Of a DNA stretch of 64,000 nucleotides, positions 557-63,207 are shown piece after piece (position 1 is the first letter of the stretch; every line of letters begins with the position of its first letter). Location: NCBI RefSeq assembly GCF_000420825.1, contig NZ_ATVR01000016.1, positions 1 through 64,000 of the forward strand. The letters are read 5' to 3'. The notes beneath the pieces were generated by a model, which saw only the letters and a list, made by a program, of their open reading frames with translations, was not told the origin of the DNA and did no database searches. This DNA is from Butyrivibrio sp. AE2015. GTDB taxonomy: Bacteria; Bacillota; Clostridia; Lachnospirales; Lachnospiraceae. The position numbers and the translations under genes were made by a program.

Positions 557-3500
557 ATGTTCATGACTATTAAATCAGTACTTAATAAAAGAATAGTTGC
601 AATATCTATGTCATTTGTGTTGGCAGCATCTGTCATCAATTTGACATCTTTTGCCAAGCCCGAAAAAGATGATGCTAAGGTCATCAGCAGTTTTTTAGAA
701 CTTCCTGAGGGTATCGTTACCCAGCGTCTGTCTGTGGGGGATCCTTTTGAAAAGATAATATTCCCGGATAATCTAATAGCATATGTGGTAAGTGAATGTG
801 GAGAAGCTTCGTCACTTTTATCTTCCGATGAGTCTGCAGTTTCACTTAGCGCTTCAAGTGGAGATTCAGCGGATGCTGCAGCAAGCAGTAGCAGTTCGCT
901 GGATGAGGCCGATGCTGCTGCAAGCGCATCAACTGAAGAAGAGCCTTCCGATGCAGCAACAGCAGGAAGTATGGTCGATGGCAAAACTGATAGCAGTGAA
1001 AGTGGATCTTCCCAAAATGAAAATGCCACTGAATCAGATACATCAGCTAAAGACAATACTATAGACGGATCAGGTAGTGAGGAAGAAAAGGAAAGCGAAA
1101 CCGGAACAGGTAATGCGGGAAATAACAGCGATGGAAATGAAGAAGCAGAGGCTGCCAGTGAAGGGGCAAAAGAAACAGAGCCTGGCACAACGTCAGAAGA
1201 TACTCCTGGTGGTAATCATGATGGTGAAGACACAAATTCTGGAAATGATCAGGATGAAGAAGATAGTACCGCAGGCAGTGACCAGGTGGATGCAAATACT
1301 GACTCCGGAAACGGAGATGAGGAAGACGATGGTAATTCCGGAAATGGTGCTGAAAATTCCGATAACGATCAGGATGACAGCTCAAATAGTGATGGAAACG
1401 ATAATTCAGGCGATGCTTCAGGTGACAGTGCAAAATTGACGTTCTGGGAGAGACTTTTTGGCAGAATGACAGTTTATGCTGCAGAAGAAGATGATGATGA
1501 TAAGACATCATCTTACATGGCACCCGGAGATTACAACGAAGACGATACTGAAGACGATATTGATAAAGAGGATGATGAGAGAACTCTTGAAGAAATCTCG
1601 ATTTCAGGAATAGAGTGGAAGCTTGATGACGCCAAGAGTACTTCTGATGAATTTAGCACGAAGGAACCAGGGGCAGTATTTGTATACTTCCCTGTTATTT
1701 CTGATGAATACAGGATTGAGAGTGATTTTCCAACTATAACTGTGTATGTGGATGAGAAAAAAGAAGATGAAGAAGCAGTTTCTTTTGAACAGACCAGTAT
1801 TATAAATGGCGTTTCAATAACTGTGAAGGCAGCCGAAGGAGTATTTCCGAAAGGTGCCCGCCTTATAGTAAATGCTGTTTCCAAGAATGAAGAAGAGCAG
1901 ATTTCAGATGCTGTTGAAAAGGGAAGAAGCAGTGAAGTAAAGGTTGCTGTTTCCTATGCCTTTGACATAAAAGTTGTTGATGAGGACGGCGTTGAAATAC
2001 AGCCGGATACATCAAAGGGAGAAGTCAAGGTTAGTTTTGCCATTGAGGAAGTGACAAATCAAAATCTTGATGCAGAAGTTTACCATGTATCAGAAGAGAG
2101 CGGAGATCTTAATGCATCACAGCTTAATGCAGAGACTATAGGAAATGAAGTTACTGTAGAAACTGACGGTTTTTCTTTTTACACTGTAGAGTTCACCTAT
2201 GGAAAGATTGAATATTCAATTGAAGGCGGTGGAAGAGTATTCCTTTCCGAAATCCTTGAAGCTGTGGGACTTAAAGGAACTGCTACGGATGCAAGATCAA
2301 GCAATGAGGACCTGGTAAGTGTAAAAAGAACTGACGAAGGTGAGATATATCTTGTTTCAGAGGCAGAGTTCCATACAGATGAAAAACTAGAGGTTGACAT
2401 TGATGGTATTACCTATGAGATCCTTATGACTGATGCAATCATAACTGCGGTCGGGGGAACTTTAGAATATGATAATAACTATAATAAATCAGCCAGTGAT
2501 CTGGTAAAAGAGATTCTTGGCGGCGGAATAGCTGCGACTAACGAGTCAAGAACGGGAACAGTATATACGTTTTCGAATGGACTTGCAGATGTAGGGATAG
2601 ATGCAGGAATTATTCTTGATACAAGCGGGTATGTTGGTGGTGGAAATGATCCACAGCTTGATTCAATTAAGGACTCTGCTTATAGATATGGCGGACATAC
2701 GTCCACCTTGGAGTTTTCACTGGTTGCAAATGGGCCTCTTTTGACATTTAATTATGCTTTCGCTTCAGGAGAGTTTAATCAGCAACCAATATATAATGAT
2801 ATATTTGGTCTCTTTGTAAGTGTAAATGGCGGAGCATATGAAAATATTGCACTCATAACAAGAACAGATGGAAACCAGGTTCCTGTCACTATCAATAGCT
2901 TAAGAGCAGGTATTGACGGTAACGAGATGAATGGCGGACAAAATACTTCTTTAGGAGGACTTCACAGTCTTTTTACAGAAAAGCAAATTCATATTAATGG
3001 CGGTAATATTAACGGAGTCTCTAATGTTTTTACAGCTCAGAAACAGGTTAATGTTGGAGATACAGTAAAAATCAAGCTTGCAATCTGTGATATAACAGAT
3101 ACTTCTGTTAATTCGTATATTTTTATCGAGGCAGGATCTCTTTCTTTCCATGCCCCTGAGTCGGAAATTGGATATATAGATGAAGAACTTAATAACCTTG
3201 ATCCATCGTCACTTTTTGAAATAACAACTGATGATGGAACAGTTCTTAGTATTACTTCATCAGGAAGCGGAACAATACCACTTATAGGTACTGATGACAA
3301 CGGAACACCTTATAACATTATTGATACTGCTGTAGCTATAGTAAAAAAAGGTACCGGTGGATACGGAGATTCACCTCCACAGCTGCTGGCTATTCCTCCA
3401 AGGCCAATAGCTGAAGATATAGATCCAACTGGTGGAGGAATATCTGCTGATCCTGAGACGGTTTCTGTCATTGTTCCGTCTCCTAATCCTGCAAAGCCTC

Positions 3501-5680
3501 CACAGAAATATCGGCTTTATGATAAAGATGGCAATGAGATCCCGGGAAGAGACTGGGTTGATGCGCCAACGGATGGGACTCCTTTGACCTTTAGAGGGCT
3601 TGATGAAGACACTGATTATATTATAAAGACCTGGATTCCGGCTACAGACAGTAATTTTAAATCCGAAATTTCTGAAGGCACGACTGTGCATACAAGGCTT
3701 AATCCTGTGGATCTGCTGAGGATCACTGTCACTGAACCTGATAAAAAGACGATAGTCGCAGATGGTGAGTATCATTCATTTGTTTGCACTTCTGACCCGG
3801 CTGATGCAATCCTCAGATATTCAATTGGTGATGATAAGCATTACGGGTACTCTACGCCTATTTTTAAGGACGTTGGTCAGTATACAGTTTACTATCAGGC
3901 TGCAAAGGTTGGTTATGTGACTGAGTATGGAAGCATGATAATCACTATATTGCCTCCGGAAAAAGAAACTATTGTAGATCTGGAAAATGACGATGTGGAG
4001 AGTTCCATAACATCTGTCACAGCGAGTAAGCTTACTGACTACACGGATGAGCAGTCAGGAGATAAGGTCAGAGTAAGACTTCTTGTAACCCCTAAGAAAC
4101 CTGAAGATATTGATAGTGGCATTGTAAATAGCGTCACTTCCAAGATAGAAAGCCTTTATGACAGCTCAAATCTTGATAATGTGAAAAAAGAGTTTTTGGA
4201 TATTGGAGTTACAAGGCGAATCAATGATGAAGATCCTGAGAATATCCATGACCTTGACAGGACAATAGAGATTGAAGTTGGCTTTGATATGACTGATAAA
4301 GAGGACTTTAAACTTGTCAGAGAACACGATGGAGAAGTCCTTGCCTTTGCTTCACTTTCAGACAGGCCAACAGATGACTATGTTGATGGCACTGTATATT
4401 TTGGTGAAGATGTGATCTGCATCTATTCAAGGTACTTTTCTACATATGTTCTTTCATATGTAGTTCCTGTGGAAGTAGTTCCGGAGCCGGAACCAGAGCC
4501 TGAACCAGAACCACAGCCTGAGCCAACGCCAACTCCTACACCGGAGCCACAGCCAGAGCCTAAGCCAGAGCCGAAGCCAGAGCCTAAACCGGAACCAAAG
4601 CCTGCACCAGTGCCAACTCCGGAGCCTACACCTGATCCGGAAGTAAAACATGAGGAAGTGGTTTATACTCCGGCCCCAGTGGAAGTGCCAGCGCCTCCTG
4701 TGATCATAACTCCGGGAAGAGCCCCTAAGACCAGTGGATTCTATGTTGGAAAGTTTACCGGTGTGTGGATTCTTATCCTTGAGGCAATTATTACAGTTTT
4801 ACTGGCAGGTATATATATTTACATAGGTGAAAAGAAAAAGGATAAGCTGTGGTACAAGGATGGATGGAAGTCCATATGCCGCGTAGGACTTTTGATAATG
4901 GCTGTTTCTTTTATCCTTATATACAGGCTTAACCAGGACTATATAAAGTCTAAGGCTATGTACGATGAAGTAAAGAATGAATATGTCACTACTTCATCAG
5001 GAAACGCCGGTAAGATGACAGTTACAAGCGCGGCTGTAAGTAAGACTGTAGCAGAGTCTTTTGGTTATGCGGATGAGCATGTGCTTGTGACGAGTGCGCC
5101 AAATGACTGGTGGAATCTTGCTCAGGTCAACGTAAAAGAAATGAGCAAAGACTATGTGGATGTCGTTGGATGGATAATGTTTGAAAACGAGGATATAAGC
5201 TATCCTATAGTTTATAGCGGCGATAATACGACTTATCTTGAGACTGCATACAATGGAGAGTGGGCCAATGCCGGAGCGATATTTGTAGATGGTCTTTCAA
5301 CACCTGATTTTAACGATCCTAATACTCTGATCTATGGCCATAATATGGGTAATCTTACCATGTTTGGTAAACTAAAATTCTATGAGAATGACAAAGAGTA
5401 TTATGATGAGCACAAATTCTTCCAGATATTTACGAAGGATAAGGTTTACCGCTACCAGATATTTGCCTGCAAACTGATCTCTGACGATCACGAGATCTAT
5501 TATGCATATGGACAGGATCCAAGGCATTACTGGAGTGCACTCAGTGATATCATCAAGAATGCAGACGTTGAATCAAGTGTTGCACCTCAGAGCCTTGACC
5601 ATATAGTTACGCTCTCTACCTGTACTTACGATGACTCTATGAGACTGGTAATATGTGCGGCAAGAGTTGATGAGCACTAA
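557..5680 (+). CDS. Giant secreted surface protein ending in a class B sortase domain
   Basis: 1707 residues. Order seen: signal peptide (about 1-33); acidic Ser/Asp/Asn/Gly-rich low-complexity stretch (about 85-330); beta-rich segments; a region resembling choice-of-anchor L domains (about 640-870); a fibronectin-like stretch; a Pro-Glu-Pro linker (about 1308-1370); APKTSG (1389-1394) resembling a class B sorting motif; membrane segments at about 1402-1424 and 1441-1458; then a class B sortase domain (about 1525-1707). The sortase triad is intact: H1595 in YGHNM, C1689 in TLSTC, R1696. Sortases transfer proteins to peptidoglycan or pilin; most are short separate enzymes. Here enzyme and a candidate sorting motif share one chain, so self-anchoring or presentation of the surface domain is an inference. 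RBS AAGGG lies at 546-550. The stop overlaps the rsgI stop by 4 bp. Confidence 0.85.
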
Positions 5681-6819
5681 TTTGTTGGAGGCGGAGCATC
5701 TTGCGGAGCCGACGGCATTTCTGAAATGCCTTTAGAACCGGTATCTTGTGGTACCGGTTCTTTTATTGCATTATTATTGGTTTCAGCTGGGGCACCTTCT
5801 GTAGTTGGCCTGTTATCTGCAGGAGGAGCATTTTCTGAAGCAACGCTATTTTCTTTGGAAGCTTCATTTAACTGAGATGCATTTTTACTATCAGGTGCTA
5901 TTTGCAAATCAGGATTGTTGTTGTCTTCGGATGGGATGTCGGGATTTTGCAGGCTCTCGGGATCATCAATTGGGATTTGCTTATCAGTTGTGTTTTCCTC
6001 CGGAATCTCGCCTGGAATTTCAGAAGGACCATTTCCGTTACCTTCAGCACCAGAGTACTCTGAGAGTATCTCTTTTACGGGGAGTGACTTATAAACATCT
6101 TTAAGTGTTGATAAGTCCTGGCTGTTATCACCGGTAAAAGAATCAGCTTCATTTAGAGGAGTGTTATCAGCTATCTGCTTCATGGCTTCGAGTCTGCCTG
6201 TACTCATACCGGAGTTAATGGCTTCCTGCCTTGAAGCTATATCAGATTCAAGGAGGCAAAGACTGATATTGCTATCATCAAAAGCTTCGGATATATCACC
6301 AGAAAGATCACTGTAAGAGCGTTCACTTCCGGGGACGACATCAATTAGTATTGAGGCATCGTCACCGAGGAGATAATTGTTTTTCTGCAAAACAGCAACT
6401 GTTTCTGATAGTGCATCGGAAAGACTTTTGTTTTTCAGACTATCACTAAGGGCATCAACAACCTCGGCAGCATCGTCATTGAGGGCGGTTACGTTTATTA
6501 CCCTGTTCAGTCTGTTTAAGGTGTATTCTATGGATGGATTTACATCGACTGTAACATAGGAATAAGCAAGAGCTGTCTCGTACATATAGGAGAGGCCTGC
6601 AGCAATGATGATAAGGGCAGCAGCCGCATATGGCAGAAATAAGCTGTACATGCTTTGATGCCTGTTTTTTTTGCCTCTTATATGACAGGTTGTTGGCGAG
6701 TCTGCAATGACTGATATTTCCTGACCGACGTCAAAGTTACCGGCTATTTTTCTAAAGCATCCGTCATCGCAAAGAACGGCACATATTCTTTTCTTTTTTT
6801 CCATTACAATTGCGTGCAT
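5677..6819 (-). CDS. rsgI: RsgI-type membrane anti-sigma factor
   Basis: 380 residues. The N-terminal ~55 residues match the cytoplasmic RsgI_N sigma-binding domain, followed by one membrane segment (about 60-82) and the conserved post-membrane region [17 protein letters not shown]. The N94-P95 bond there is at the place reported for RsgI autoproteolysis in related clostridia. The outer part from about 220 is a disordered tail rich in Pro, Asn, Glu and Ser; no carbohydrate-binding module is visible, unlike cellulosomal RsgI proteins. RBS AAAGGGA precedes ATG at 6819. It starts 11 bp after the sigI stop, so the pair is co-transcribed. The family holds SigI inactive until an outside signal releases it. 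Confidence 0.85.
5735..5765 (+). terminator. Terminator lying inside rsgI coding DNA
   Basis: GAACCGGTA (5735-5743) pairs perfectly with TACCGGTTC (5752-5760), followed by TTTTATT. It would end transcripts of the plus-strand sortase-surface gene, but it lies antisense within the 3' coding part of rsgI because the two genes converge without a gap. Confidence 0.65.
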
Positions 6820-6830
6820 GATCTGTCCCT

Positions 6831-7583
6831 TTACAAATTTGATGGAGAGTTAGTTATAAACCACATATATTCTGAAAGCTGTGGATAATCACCATTTATT
6901 ATCAGTGTTGCAGTGATTATGTAGCGTCTGTATCTATCCAGCATTTTTCTTGATATCCGGCTTTTTTCCTCGAGTTCTTTCATTGGAAGAGTTTTTGAAC
7001 GTTTCATTTTCTGCAACAGTTCTTCTGAAGTTAACATCACCTTTACAGCCTTAGCGCATGCTCTCTTAGTCTTTTCCGTGCAGGGGGAGCATTTTGTCAG
7101 ATCCATAAAGCTAAAACCATAGTCAGTAAGCTTGCTGCTGATCTCTGCTATCTCATCCTTTACAGTTACCTGATGGTCTATGGAATTTTGCTTTGCGTAA
7201 GAAATATCCGCCGATTTTTCCTTAAGTTCAAATGAAATAGGAGACTCCTTGTCCTCATCTATTTCTCCTTCAAAAAGGTAGGGTTCTACGCTAAGCTCGC
7301 ATTCATGGTGCTTTGCCTTTCTCATATGATCAAGAATCCTTCTCTTTATGACCAGATTTGCAAAACTTGAGAAAGCTCCTTTGGAAATATCGTAAGAATC
7401 GATAGCTTCAAGGAAAGCGCTAAGTGCAATGGAGTACTCATCATCACTTTCTGTTATGAATCTTCCCGCACATTTATATGCACAGTATTTTATGTATCCT
7501 GTGTTTTTTTCAATAAAAGAATTCAGCTGAGACGGAGAATTTTTTACCTCTATGACTTCTTCGCTAAATGCATTCTTTTCCAT
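6831..7583 (-). CDS. sigI: SigI-family RNA polymerase sigma factor
   Basis: 250 residues from ATG at 7583, which has RBS GGGAG 6 nt upstream. A longer TTG start at 7628 is possible but lacks such a site. The sigma-70 region 2-like stretch runs from the N-terminus (YIKYCAYKCAGRF, EYSIALSAFLEAIDSYD, FSSFANLVIKRRILDHMRK), and the C-terminal helix-turn-helix-like part contains RISRKMLDRYRRYI. Both are typical of SigI rather than ECF sigma factors. SigI proteins direct heat or extracellular-polysaccharide responses in Bacillus and Clostridium. Its immediate partner is rsgI. A SigI-like promoter lies just upstream, suggesting autoregulation. Confidence 0.85.
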   Translation of the reverse strand: MEKNAFSEEVIEVKNSPSQLNSFIEKNTGYIKYCAYKCAGRFITESDDEYSIALSAFLEAIDSYDISKGAFSSFANLVIKRRILDHMRKAKHHECELSVEPYLFEGEIDEDKESPISFELKEKSADISYAKQNSIDHQVTVKDEIAEISSKLTDYGFSFMDLTKCSPCTEKTKRACAKAVKVMLTSEELLQKMKRSKTLPMKELEEKSRISRKMLDRYRRYIITATLIINGDYPQLSEYMWFITNSPSNL

Positions 7584-7609
7584 AATTAACTCCCGAGTAT
7601 ATTGAATTA

Positions 7610-7638
7610 TTCGAATATGGATGGACAAAGAATGGGGT
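7610..7638 (-). promoter_or_regulatory. SigI-like promoter ahead of sigI
   Basis: Read on the minus strand: ACCCCA (7638-7633), a 19-nt spacer, then CGAA (7613-7610). SigI promoters are described with a C-rich -35 (ACCCCC) and CGAA at -10. It lies 27 bp upstream of the chosen sigI start and would make sigI autoregulated. Confidence 0.5.
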
Positions 7639-7705: not shown

Positions 7706-7750
7706 ATATTACTGTGAGGAACTAAAAATAAATTAAAAATGGAGGAATCT

Positions 7751-8506
7751 ATGATGAAAAGAATAATAGGAACAATGACAGCAATAGCTTCGGCGATTAT
7801 AATGCTTGCGACCGTGCAGGTTACAGCCATGGCAGCACCTCAGGCAAAAGATGCGCAGCCACCTGCTCAGGGAGCGGCACCTGCCCAGGGCGAAGCGCCA
7901 AAGGGCGGACAGGCGCCAAAGGATGGTGAGCAGCCACCGGAAATGCCTGATGCATCAGGAACTGCAAGCACCGGTGAAGCCCCTGAAAAACCAGAGGGTG
8001 AGGCACCAAAAGAGGGTGAAGCTCCTAAAGAAGAGCCTAAGGATGGCGAAAAGCCTTTAGCAGACGCAGATATGACAACTTTGCTTGAAAATCTTCTTGA
8101 GTCGATCGAAGCTCTGGATGATGAAGATGTAAAAGAAAACATTACAGAATTATATGATGCATTTGTAGATGCTCTTGATGCAGAGCAGGCAGCAATAGAT
8201 GCAGAATCTGATGAAGATACATTAGCTGAAGTTAAGCAGGCTGTTGAAGATGCGAGAGCAGCGCTGCAGAGCGCTTTGGAAGAAGCTGGAATCGATTTTG
8301 ACCTAGAGCCAAAGACAGGTGATGAAGCGTCAAAGGCTATAGAGGATGGTGAAGAGTTATCAGAAGAAATTGCACCGAAGGATGCAGAGCCTGCCGTAAA
8401 TGAAGATGGAAGTGCTGATGAATCTGTTGAGAAGACAAGCCCTATCAAGAAGATTGGAAACGCAATAAAGAGCTTTTTTAACAAATTATTCAAGAAGAGC
8501 GAATAA
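7751..8506 (+). CDS. Small secreted acidic protein with basic C-terminal helix
   Basis: 251 residues from ATG at 7751; RBS GGAGG at 7741-7745 decides this start over the in-frame ATG at 7739. Signal peptide to about residue 28 (MAA-PQ). Then a low-complexity stretch of Pro, Ala, Gly, Gln and Glu (about 30-95) with repeated GEAP/KEGEAP units, a predicted helical acidic segment (about 100-225), and a basic amphipathic end, IKKIGNAIKSFFNKLFKK. I recognise no family. Placed divergently from sigI behind a matching promoter-like element, it may be a SigI target; that is inference. No sorting motif is visible, so it is probably released. Confidence 0.7.
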   Translation: MMKRIIGTMTAIASAIIMLATVQVTAMAAPQAKDAQPPAQGAAPAQGEAPKGGQAPKDGEQPPEMPDASGTASTGEAPEKPEGEAPKEGEAPKEEPKDGEKPLADADMTTLLENLLESIEALDDEDVKENITELYDAFVDALDAEQAAIDAESDEDTLAEVKQAVEDARAALQSALEEAGIDFDLEPKTGDEASKAIEDGEELSEEIAPKDAEPAVNEDGSADESVEKTSPIKKIGNAIKSFFNKLFKKSE

Positions 8507-62430: not shown

Positions 62431-63207
62431 TCATATTTTGTAAATTGCATAGCGGATCGCATACAACAGTAGTAAATGTGCGGGGTAGAAGAGATAGAAG
62501 AGATACTTAAGCTTTCCTAGATCTTTGCCCCGCTTTTTGTTATAGAAAAACAGGAGGATAAAGCCTGGAAAAGCTTTGAATTCATTGGAAATTCCGCAGA
62601 GTACGATATAGGAAGCAAGAAGGCTTATCGCTTCATAGAAATGGAAGAAATAAAATATAAGGATCACACATATTCCAAATTCGCGATAGTCGCAGTTAAT
62701 AACATGTGCAGTATAGGCGCCAATTGCTATAACAAGTGCGCTAGCAGGATAGAATGCTATGCGGGATATCTTTTTATCTGACATAGATAATTCTTTTCTA
62801 AAGAAGTCTGCAGCCCATATGACGAGAAGGCCAATAAATAGTGAAAATAAAACGTTGGCGCTGTACATAAAGTCGTTGTCAGCCTTATTGAATGCAAGAT
62901 CATAGGGATATTCAGAAATAATAGCAAAAATAAACAGACTAAGAGCGTATCTTAGTCTGTTTTTTGTGTGGTAAAAACCCTCAACCAGTAGAAAAGCAAA
63001 TACCGGAAAGGCACTGCGACCAACAAATCGCAAAATTTTGTAAAACATGTTCAACTTTTCAAAATCAAAGATATCTTTCTGAACTCCGGCCTGAAATACA
63101 GGAAGAATGATAGCTGCGCCGATATGGTCTATAAGCATACATATGCATGCTATTACTTTTAGTGTATTGCCATTAAGTTTGCGGTATTTGTCTATATCGA
63201 AAGTCAT
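62431..63207 (-). CDS. TraX-family membrane protein
   Basis: 258 residues, about seven to eight membrane helices. LKVIACICMLIDHIGAAI, VGRSAFPVFAFLLVEGFYHT and ISEYPYDLAF match the chromosomal TraX-like family of Firmicutes, related to the F-pilin acetyltransferase but with unknown acceptor here; not evidence of a plasmid. It starts 6 bp after the DUF3048 gene on the same strand. Confidence 0.85.
   Translation of the reverse strand: MTFDIDKYRKLNGNTLKVIACICMLIDHIGAAIILPVFQAGVQKDIFDFEKLNMFYKILRFVGRSAFPVFAFLLVEGFYHTKNRLRYALSLFIFAIISEYPYDLAFNKADNDFMYSANVLFSLFIGLLVIWAADFFRKELSMSDKKISRIAFYPASALVIAIGAYTAHVINCDYREFGICVILIFYFFHFYEAISLLASYIVLCGISNEFKAFPGFILLFFYNKKRGKDLGKLKYLFYLFYPAHLLLLYAIRYAIYKI

Follow-up and report, generated by a model that had tools for sequence, protein, structure and literature searches.

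The window analysed here, a stretch of 64,000 nucleotides from the rumen bacterium Butyrivibrio sp. AE2015 (contig NZ_ATVR01000016.1, positions 1 to 64,000), carries at 557..5680 on the plus strand a gene for a 1707-residue protein that is a surface protein at its N-terminal side and a class B sortase at its C-terminus. Comparison with its relatives suggests that a surface protein and its dedicated sortase have merged into one chain, and that the protein probably anchors itself. Sortases are known as separate enzymes that act on their substrates in trans, and the open-licence literature searched, as judged by title and the start of the abstract, yielded no natural fusion of a sortase with its substrate.

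The gene begins with ATG and is a single frame without internal stops; its nearest relative found is in Butyrivibrio sp. Su6 (99%). The architecture, coordinates and residue numbers given in the first-pass annotation were reproduced by open reading frame analysis, a Kyte-Doolittle scan and family matches. From the N-terminus, the chain consists of a signal peptide (residues 1–34, with a presumed end; 557..658), an acidic, low-complexity stalk rich in S, D, E, A, G and N (residues 81–310; 797..1486), a choice-of-anchor L domain (residues 648–862; 2498..3142), a linker of 40% Pro (residues 1301–1386; 4457..4714), the sequence GRAPKTSG, a membrane helix followed by KKKDK (residues 1396–1425; 4742..4831), a second membrane helix, the apparent sortase anchor (residues 1436–1459; 4862..4933), a tether of about 66 residues and the sortase domain (residues 1526–1704; 5132..5668). 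Both helices appear in the Kyte-Doolittle scan and in the AlphaFold model; segment 12–33 is the only other hydrophobic segment that the scan shows in the protein. The choice-of-anchor L domain matches NF038133 of NCBIfam with 92.1 bits (cut-off 27, E 3.4e-26); scans of the relatives G010, G014, G019, G065, G070 and G079 (G numbers denote genomes) listed no match to this family at E 0.01.

RAPKTSG, helix 1396–1425 and KKKDK together have the form of a complete sorting signal. The features of a sortase substrate are present in the signal peptide (segment 12–33) and in the hydrophobic stretch and basic tail that follow the motif; the motif itself reads APKTS, with S replacing the G of PxTG. As 313 residues follow APKTSG (residues 1389–1394; 4721..4738), the signal is not C-terminal in this protein. 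The motif was placed by its position and by alignment with RAPKTGD, RAPQTGD and similar sequences of the relatives.

The enzyme is a class B sortase, as judged from family matches, PDB sequence matches and the modelled fold. TIGR03064 (class B sortase) matches residues 1524–1698 (E 1.5e-35) and Pfam Sortase matches residues 1547–1704 (41.7 bits, cut-off 26.6), while the PDB sequence matches are headed by C. difficile and other SrtB chains. An AlphaFold model of residues 1381–1707 (mean predicted local distance difference test score, pLDDT, of 67) consists of two long helices and one domain. From residue 1521 onwards the 10-residue blocks have a pLDDT of 69–90, with two exceptions near 61, and the first 19 fold matches of the domain in the PDB are all class B sortases. 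The enzyme is not a stand-alone protein of about 200–300 residues; it forms the C-terminal part of the 1707-residue chain. The catalytic residues His1595 (5339..5341) and Cys1689 (5621..5623) lie in invariant alignment columns and Arg1696 (5642..5644) in a nearly invariant one. All three are kept in 20 of 20 proteins checked (16 of the Butyrivibrio clade and four of a second fusion, both described below), a set that includes fused, frame-split and contig-cut proteins. The ratio of nonsynonymous to synonymous substitution rates (dN/dS) is 0.016–0.059 for the sortase (9 pairs) and 0.127–0.193 for the remaining protein (3 pairs), several of the dS values being close to saturation. Because the catalytic residues are retained throughout and the sortase dN/dS is low, the enzyme seems to be kept by selection, and the selection acting on it seems to be strongly purifying.

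The first-pass annotation had proposed looking for the same architecture elsewhere, and the layout was found across Butyrivibrio. Among 79 genomes of the genus, 38 of which have a sortase match at E 1e-25 or better, 15 contain 16 close relatives (the window protein included) whose sortases are 52–100% identical to that of the window. Thirteen of the 16, from 12 genomes, are single open frames of 1094–1816 residues, counting the G002 fusion, whose frame is cut at the contig 5′ end. In G077 the gene is cut by contig ends into a 290-residue sortase piece and, elsewhere, a 1524-residue frame with RAPKTGD, and the ends overlap. In the remaining two, G019 and G065, the surface part and the sortase are in different frames. 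Since the order of stalk, RAPxTxD-like signal, helix, helix and sortase recurs across this sample, the layout is not due to chance. A tree built from 80 sortase sequences places the 16 relatives in one clade (99/98 support), which divides into the G019/G065 pair (100/98) and a sister group made up of the remaining 14 (100/96). A sortase on a contig filed under Alistipes senegalensis (Bacteroidota) is almost identical to the Ruminococcus ones; this contig looks mis-binned.

Just outside the clade lie G070, G310 and the pair G008/G084, which join it in a fork without clear order (86/87). G070 has two genes: one for a 704-residue protein with an InlB-type repeat and, 72 bases downstream, one for the sortase. 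The surface protein ends in VPKTGDELPLELMLLVLVAGVSFIAMGLKFRTEVRKNDDQ, that is, VPKTGD followed by a hydrophobic stretch and a basic tail. An InlB-type repeat also precedes the signal in the fused proteins of G014 and G079, and BLASTP ties the InlB-repeat part of the G070 protein to eleven fused proteins. In G310 a 160-residue protein, with a hydrophobic end preceded by SKTDD, is encoded upstream of the sortase, which itself has a second hydrophobic segment at its C-terminus. A comparable pair is present on plasmid pCY360 of B. proteoclasticus B316, where a SpaA-like protein ends in AKAPKTGD, a hydrophobic stretch and TRKKIS and the next gene is annotated as a class B sortase. This pair shares with the window gene a surface protein having APKTGD, a hydrophobic stretch and a basic tail, with a class B sortase adjoining; it differs in being two genes and in its SpaA-type, pilin-related ectodomain. 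The like signal sits at the protein end in G070, G019 and G065. From these comparisons, the fused chain most simply derives from a substrate-sortase gene pair.

In the two frame-split relatives, G019 and G065, the surface frames end in FKRGDFKKKR-stop, which has the form of a sorting-signal end. The frame switch occurs on an identical run of ten A (A10), although the two loci are only 68% identical in DNA. The other frame runs on from A10 into the sortase and aligns with the window protein from helix 2 onward (in G019, query 54–326). In the 34 codons after A10, 19 of the 29 differences between G019 and G065 fall at third positions of the sortase frame, an excess reached in none of 20,000 permutations. 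In both genomes, a run of at least nine A at the frame change is thus combined with a constrained downstream frame. Genome-wide, C-A10-G occurs once in G019 (4.4 Mb), at this site, and twice in G065, one of these being here; the counts are one in G014, two in G004 and none in the window genome. Across 499,933 bases (the window plus 32 loci) there are two A or T runs of at least ten, and both are those of G019 and G065. The choice of A-rich codons for KKKR is weak evidence when taken alone, because its neutral chance is about 0.05 from codon use; the rarity of C-A10-G is stronger evidence.

Stretches of roughly nine A or T are reported to be prone to slippage and avoided in many genomes (PMC1088944), and in Citrobacter rodentium tssM1 an A11 run before the stop is described as giving two length variants through transcriptional slippage (PMC4256274). 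In G019 and G065, as in tssM1, an A run lies just before a stop and the downstream domain is in another frame; the slippage here is deduced from sequence, for these two genomes only, and the window gene is not involved. The RNA following A10 shows no sign of the structure of a ribosomal frameshift site (z-scores 0.38 and −1.04), so that transcriptional slippage is favoured as the likely mechanism, by which G019 and G065 would make both a plain and a fused surface protein. A possible alternative is that translation of the sortase gene restarts independently: both genomes have an ATG at codon 41 after A10, preceded closely by GGAG, and there is a further ATG at codon 35 in G019 and a GTG at codon 14 in G065. 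On the other side, the coding constraint starts directly after A10, and in G019 there is no ATG, GTG or TTG within the first 34 codons. A further possibility is that both assemblies have the length of this homopolymer wrong. Because the pair and the fused group are sisters, the tree is compatible with a step toward fusion and with a later change alike. In the window gene, a TAA lies in the −1 frame right after the Lys run (4826–4846), giving KKKG-stop, and Su6 has KKKR-stop with a run of A6. The resemblance to the surface-frame end of G019 and G065 is probably due to chance, and is possibly the trace of an old gene end.

Outside Butyrivibrio, elsewhere in the class, a second fusion was found. 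In an order-wide sample of 295 genomes, 138 of which have a match at E 1e-16, the frames of more than 1000 residues among the matches listed are those of the window, Su6 and G350. The G350 protein (1640 residues) has a thioester domain, nine SpaA stretches, KAVPQTGDDNF, a helix, KKGKYSR, a second helix and a class B sortase that scores 178.7 bits with TIGR03064, above the cut-off of 153.75. Further fusions were present among the matches listed in G364, G398 and G433 (391 genomes, 202 matching at E 1e-25), and a stricter search of 391 genomes (five matching at E 1e-45) added G487. This second fusion thus extends over five genomes in five genera and at least two families, with VPQTGDD in all five; the ectodomain was typed in G350. 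The sortases of G350, G364, G398 and G433 (G487 was left out) form a clade of their own (100/100), apart from the Butyrivibrio clade. On this phylogenetic evidence, the joining of sorting signal and sortase B took place on at least two occasions, and the two kinds of fusion differ in the domains of their ectodomains. Among the genes before the G350 fusion are one for a TraG-like ATPase and one for an M23 + NlpC/P60 hydrolase, a conjugation-type setting, and by eye G487 has the same upstream gene order. The 14 kb surrounding the fusion in G433 showed no such genes; this copy is preceded by an open reading frame that appears regulator-like by eye, starts differently and may be rearranged.

Taken together, the G070 pair, the frame-split pair and the second fusion support the view that sortase and sorting signal belong together. 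It is proposed that an ectodomain of some 1390 residues is secreted, and that helix 1 and its Lys-rich end would retain the chain at the membrane, as in an ordinary sorting signal. Helix 2 would then return the chain outward, placing the sortase on the motif's side of the membrane at the end of its tether. There, C1689 would cut between T1392 and S1393 of its own chain or of a neighbour's, pass the ectodomain to an amine of a peptidoglycan stem peptide and leave behind a membrane sortase with two helices. The topology, the cleavage, the acceptor and the action in cis or in trans are all inferred from sequence.

APKTSG is a plausible candidate for the cleavage site by analogy, as a class B sortase is known to cut between T and S. 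The substrate AbpA of S. parasanguinis is reported to be cut at this point in LPKTS, with tolerance at the S position (PMC4974636), and the abpA and srtB genes are described as one locus (PMC4974636). Substrates described for L. monocytogenes SrtB contain NAKTN and NPKSS (PMC3208642). C. difficile SrtB is reported to cut (S/P)PXTG after T, with diaminopimelic acid as the likely acceptor (PMC4155245); NPQTN is reported not to be recognised by it (PMC5118464), and the enzymes thus differ in what they tolerate. The abpA-srtB (PMC4974636) and C. difficile (PMC4155245) systems, as described, resemble the window protein in enzyme class, in a PKT-type motif and in cleavage after T, and AbpA also in the T|S cut that APKTSG would undergo; they differ in that enzyme and substrate are separate proteins there and one chain here.

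A narrower version of the self-anchoring proposal has somewhat less than an even chance of being right. It holds that the sortase serves mainly its own ectodomain in cis and is close to single-use, and that the fusion arose in a series from a two-gene pair (as in G070) through two frames linked by A10 slippage (as in G019 and G065) to the full fusion (14 proteins). Slippage would set the ratio of plain substrate to substrate-enzyme, and the motif would be free to drift once it no longer competed for a shared enzyme. For self-anchoring in general, a profile of the sorting signal was run on the 79 genomes; it was trained on the family (with one stray row) and may miss diverged clients. At E 0.01 it matched all 16 proteins of the family and, at E 7e-4, that of G070, besides four weak matches that begin at or after the motif end. 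The profile reveals no further client carrying this signal in these genomes, and the obvious client of the sortase is therefore its own chain.

Several observations weigh against self-anchoring. The window sortase does not reach the curated cut-off of TIGR03064 (122.6 against 153.75 bits). The structural model that the first-pass annotation had suggested gave the expected class B sortase fold, but the motif region is undefined in it (residues 1381–1402, pLDDT <50). The large gene upstream of the G008 sortase, the single neighbour examined there, lacks a sorting-signal end, so that the pair arrangement is not universal just outside the clade. The window genome has seven Sortase-family places, six of them besides the fused one, and these other sortases could act on the motif. 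Finally, the motif varies. The fused proteins have RAPKTSG (window, G098), RAPKMGD (G002, G004a, G071), RAPKTGD (G004b, G010, G077), RAPHTGD, RAPGTND, RAPGTRD, RAPKTSD, RAPKTHD and RAARTND. PxTG is kept in four of these 14 (RAPKTGD three times and RAPHTGD) and, among the unfused or frame-split G070, G019 and G065, in three of three; the other ten, the window's included, depart from it. Thr is kept in 11 of 14 (Met in three) and Pro in 13 of 14 (Ala in RAARTND). The motif may thus be decaying after fusion. The three proteins with Met for Thr are the hardest to square with cleavage, because changing the T of AbpA to A or S is reported to have abolished anchoring (PMC4974636). The high local concentration within one chain could relax the demands on the motif, although decay after loss of function would look alike. 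The self-anchoring inference of the first-pass annotation is therefore supported in part, by relatives that back its pairing of sortase and signal, and is weakened by the departure from PxTG in most fused motifs.

This drift also favours an unlikely alternative, in which the fused protein stays whole: the motif would be a relic, the protein a membrane-held adhesin and the sortase an enzyme for other proteins. The two membrane helices would anchor such a protein without cleavage. However, every one of the 16 family signals retains R and A; P is present in 15, D at the last position in 14 (it is replaced by G in the window and G098) and T in 13, and R, A, P and D persist beside a variable linker. 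VPQTGDD is kept in all five second fusions, the profile revealed no other protein with this signal in the genus genomes, and class B sortases are described as tolerating changes after T and at P (PMC4974636, PMC3208642).

A second alternative, which we regard as less probable still, is that another cellular sortase cuts the motif in trans while the fused sortase serves a different client. Candidate enzymes exist, as three of the six other sortase places also match the fused sortase region. Against this, the sortase adjoins a PKTGD protein in G070 and on pCY360, an arrangement described as usual for accessory sortases and their own substrates (PMC4974636). A frame or assembly error joining two genes, suggested by the different frames of the two halves in G019 and G065, is practically ruled out by the 13 open fusions from 12 genomes, with one more cut by contig ends, and by the second fusion family in five further genomes, which contradict the first-pass annotation's alternative that stalk and sortase are always separate genes.

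Self-cleaving sortase fusions have been engineered, the original reportedly by Mao in 2004. Fusions of sortase, LPETG and target are described as cleaving themselves (PMC2901362). These likewise hold enzyme and motif in one chain that cuts itself in the engineered case, but they are artificial, with the enzyme first and a sortase A (PMC2901362), whereas the window protein is natural, has membrane helices and carries a class B enzyme last. If self-anchoring is correct, some surface proteins carry their own stapler, with anchoring tied one-to-one to export, and the question of cis or trans action in sortase work becomes directly testable. The proteins would also offer natural self-processing display parts, of which an engineered form already exists (PMC2901362). 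In the frame-split relatives, a gene fusion could be viewed, as is rare, while under way or reversing.

Tail to tail with the fused gene, at 5677–7628 on the minus strand, lie genes for an RsgI-like anti-sigma factor (380 residues) and a SigI-like sigma factor. The facing ends overlap by four bases, and the order is repeated in Su6; SigI might control this neighbourhood. At 7739–8506 on the plus strand is a gene for a secreted-looking protein of 255 residues with an internal EPKTGDE (residues 190–196). This is the sole place in the 3.7-Mb window genome (8309–8323) that matches a degenerate DNA pattern encoding P[K/Q]T[G/S/R]D (the window motif PKTSG, lacking D, does not fit the pattern). EPKTGDE was rejected as a sorting signal, being internal, about 60 residues before the end, and followed by no hydrophobic helix by eye.

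With a general LPXTG model (E up to 1), the window genome yields proteins with LPSTG, LPETG and LAKTG beside other sortases, and weaker matches. At a locus around 62475–63186 of G000:C15, a surface protein (open frame 1651) that ends in LAKTGG, a hydrophobic stretch and KKNEKK adjoins a different kind of sortase, of 211 residues; the two are the second surface protein-sortase pair of this genome, and an unfused one. The LPSTG and LPETG proteins belong to a pilin-like cluster (G000:C40:1-14000) with two further sortases.

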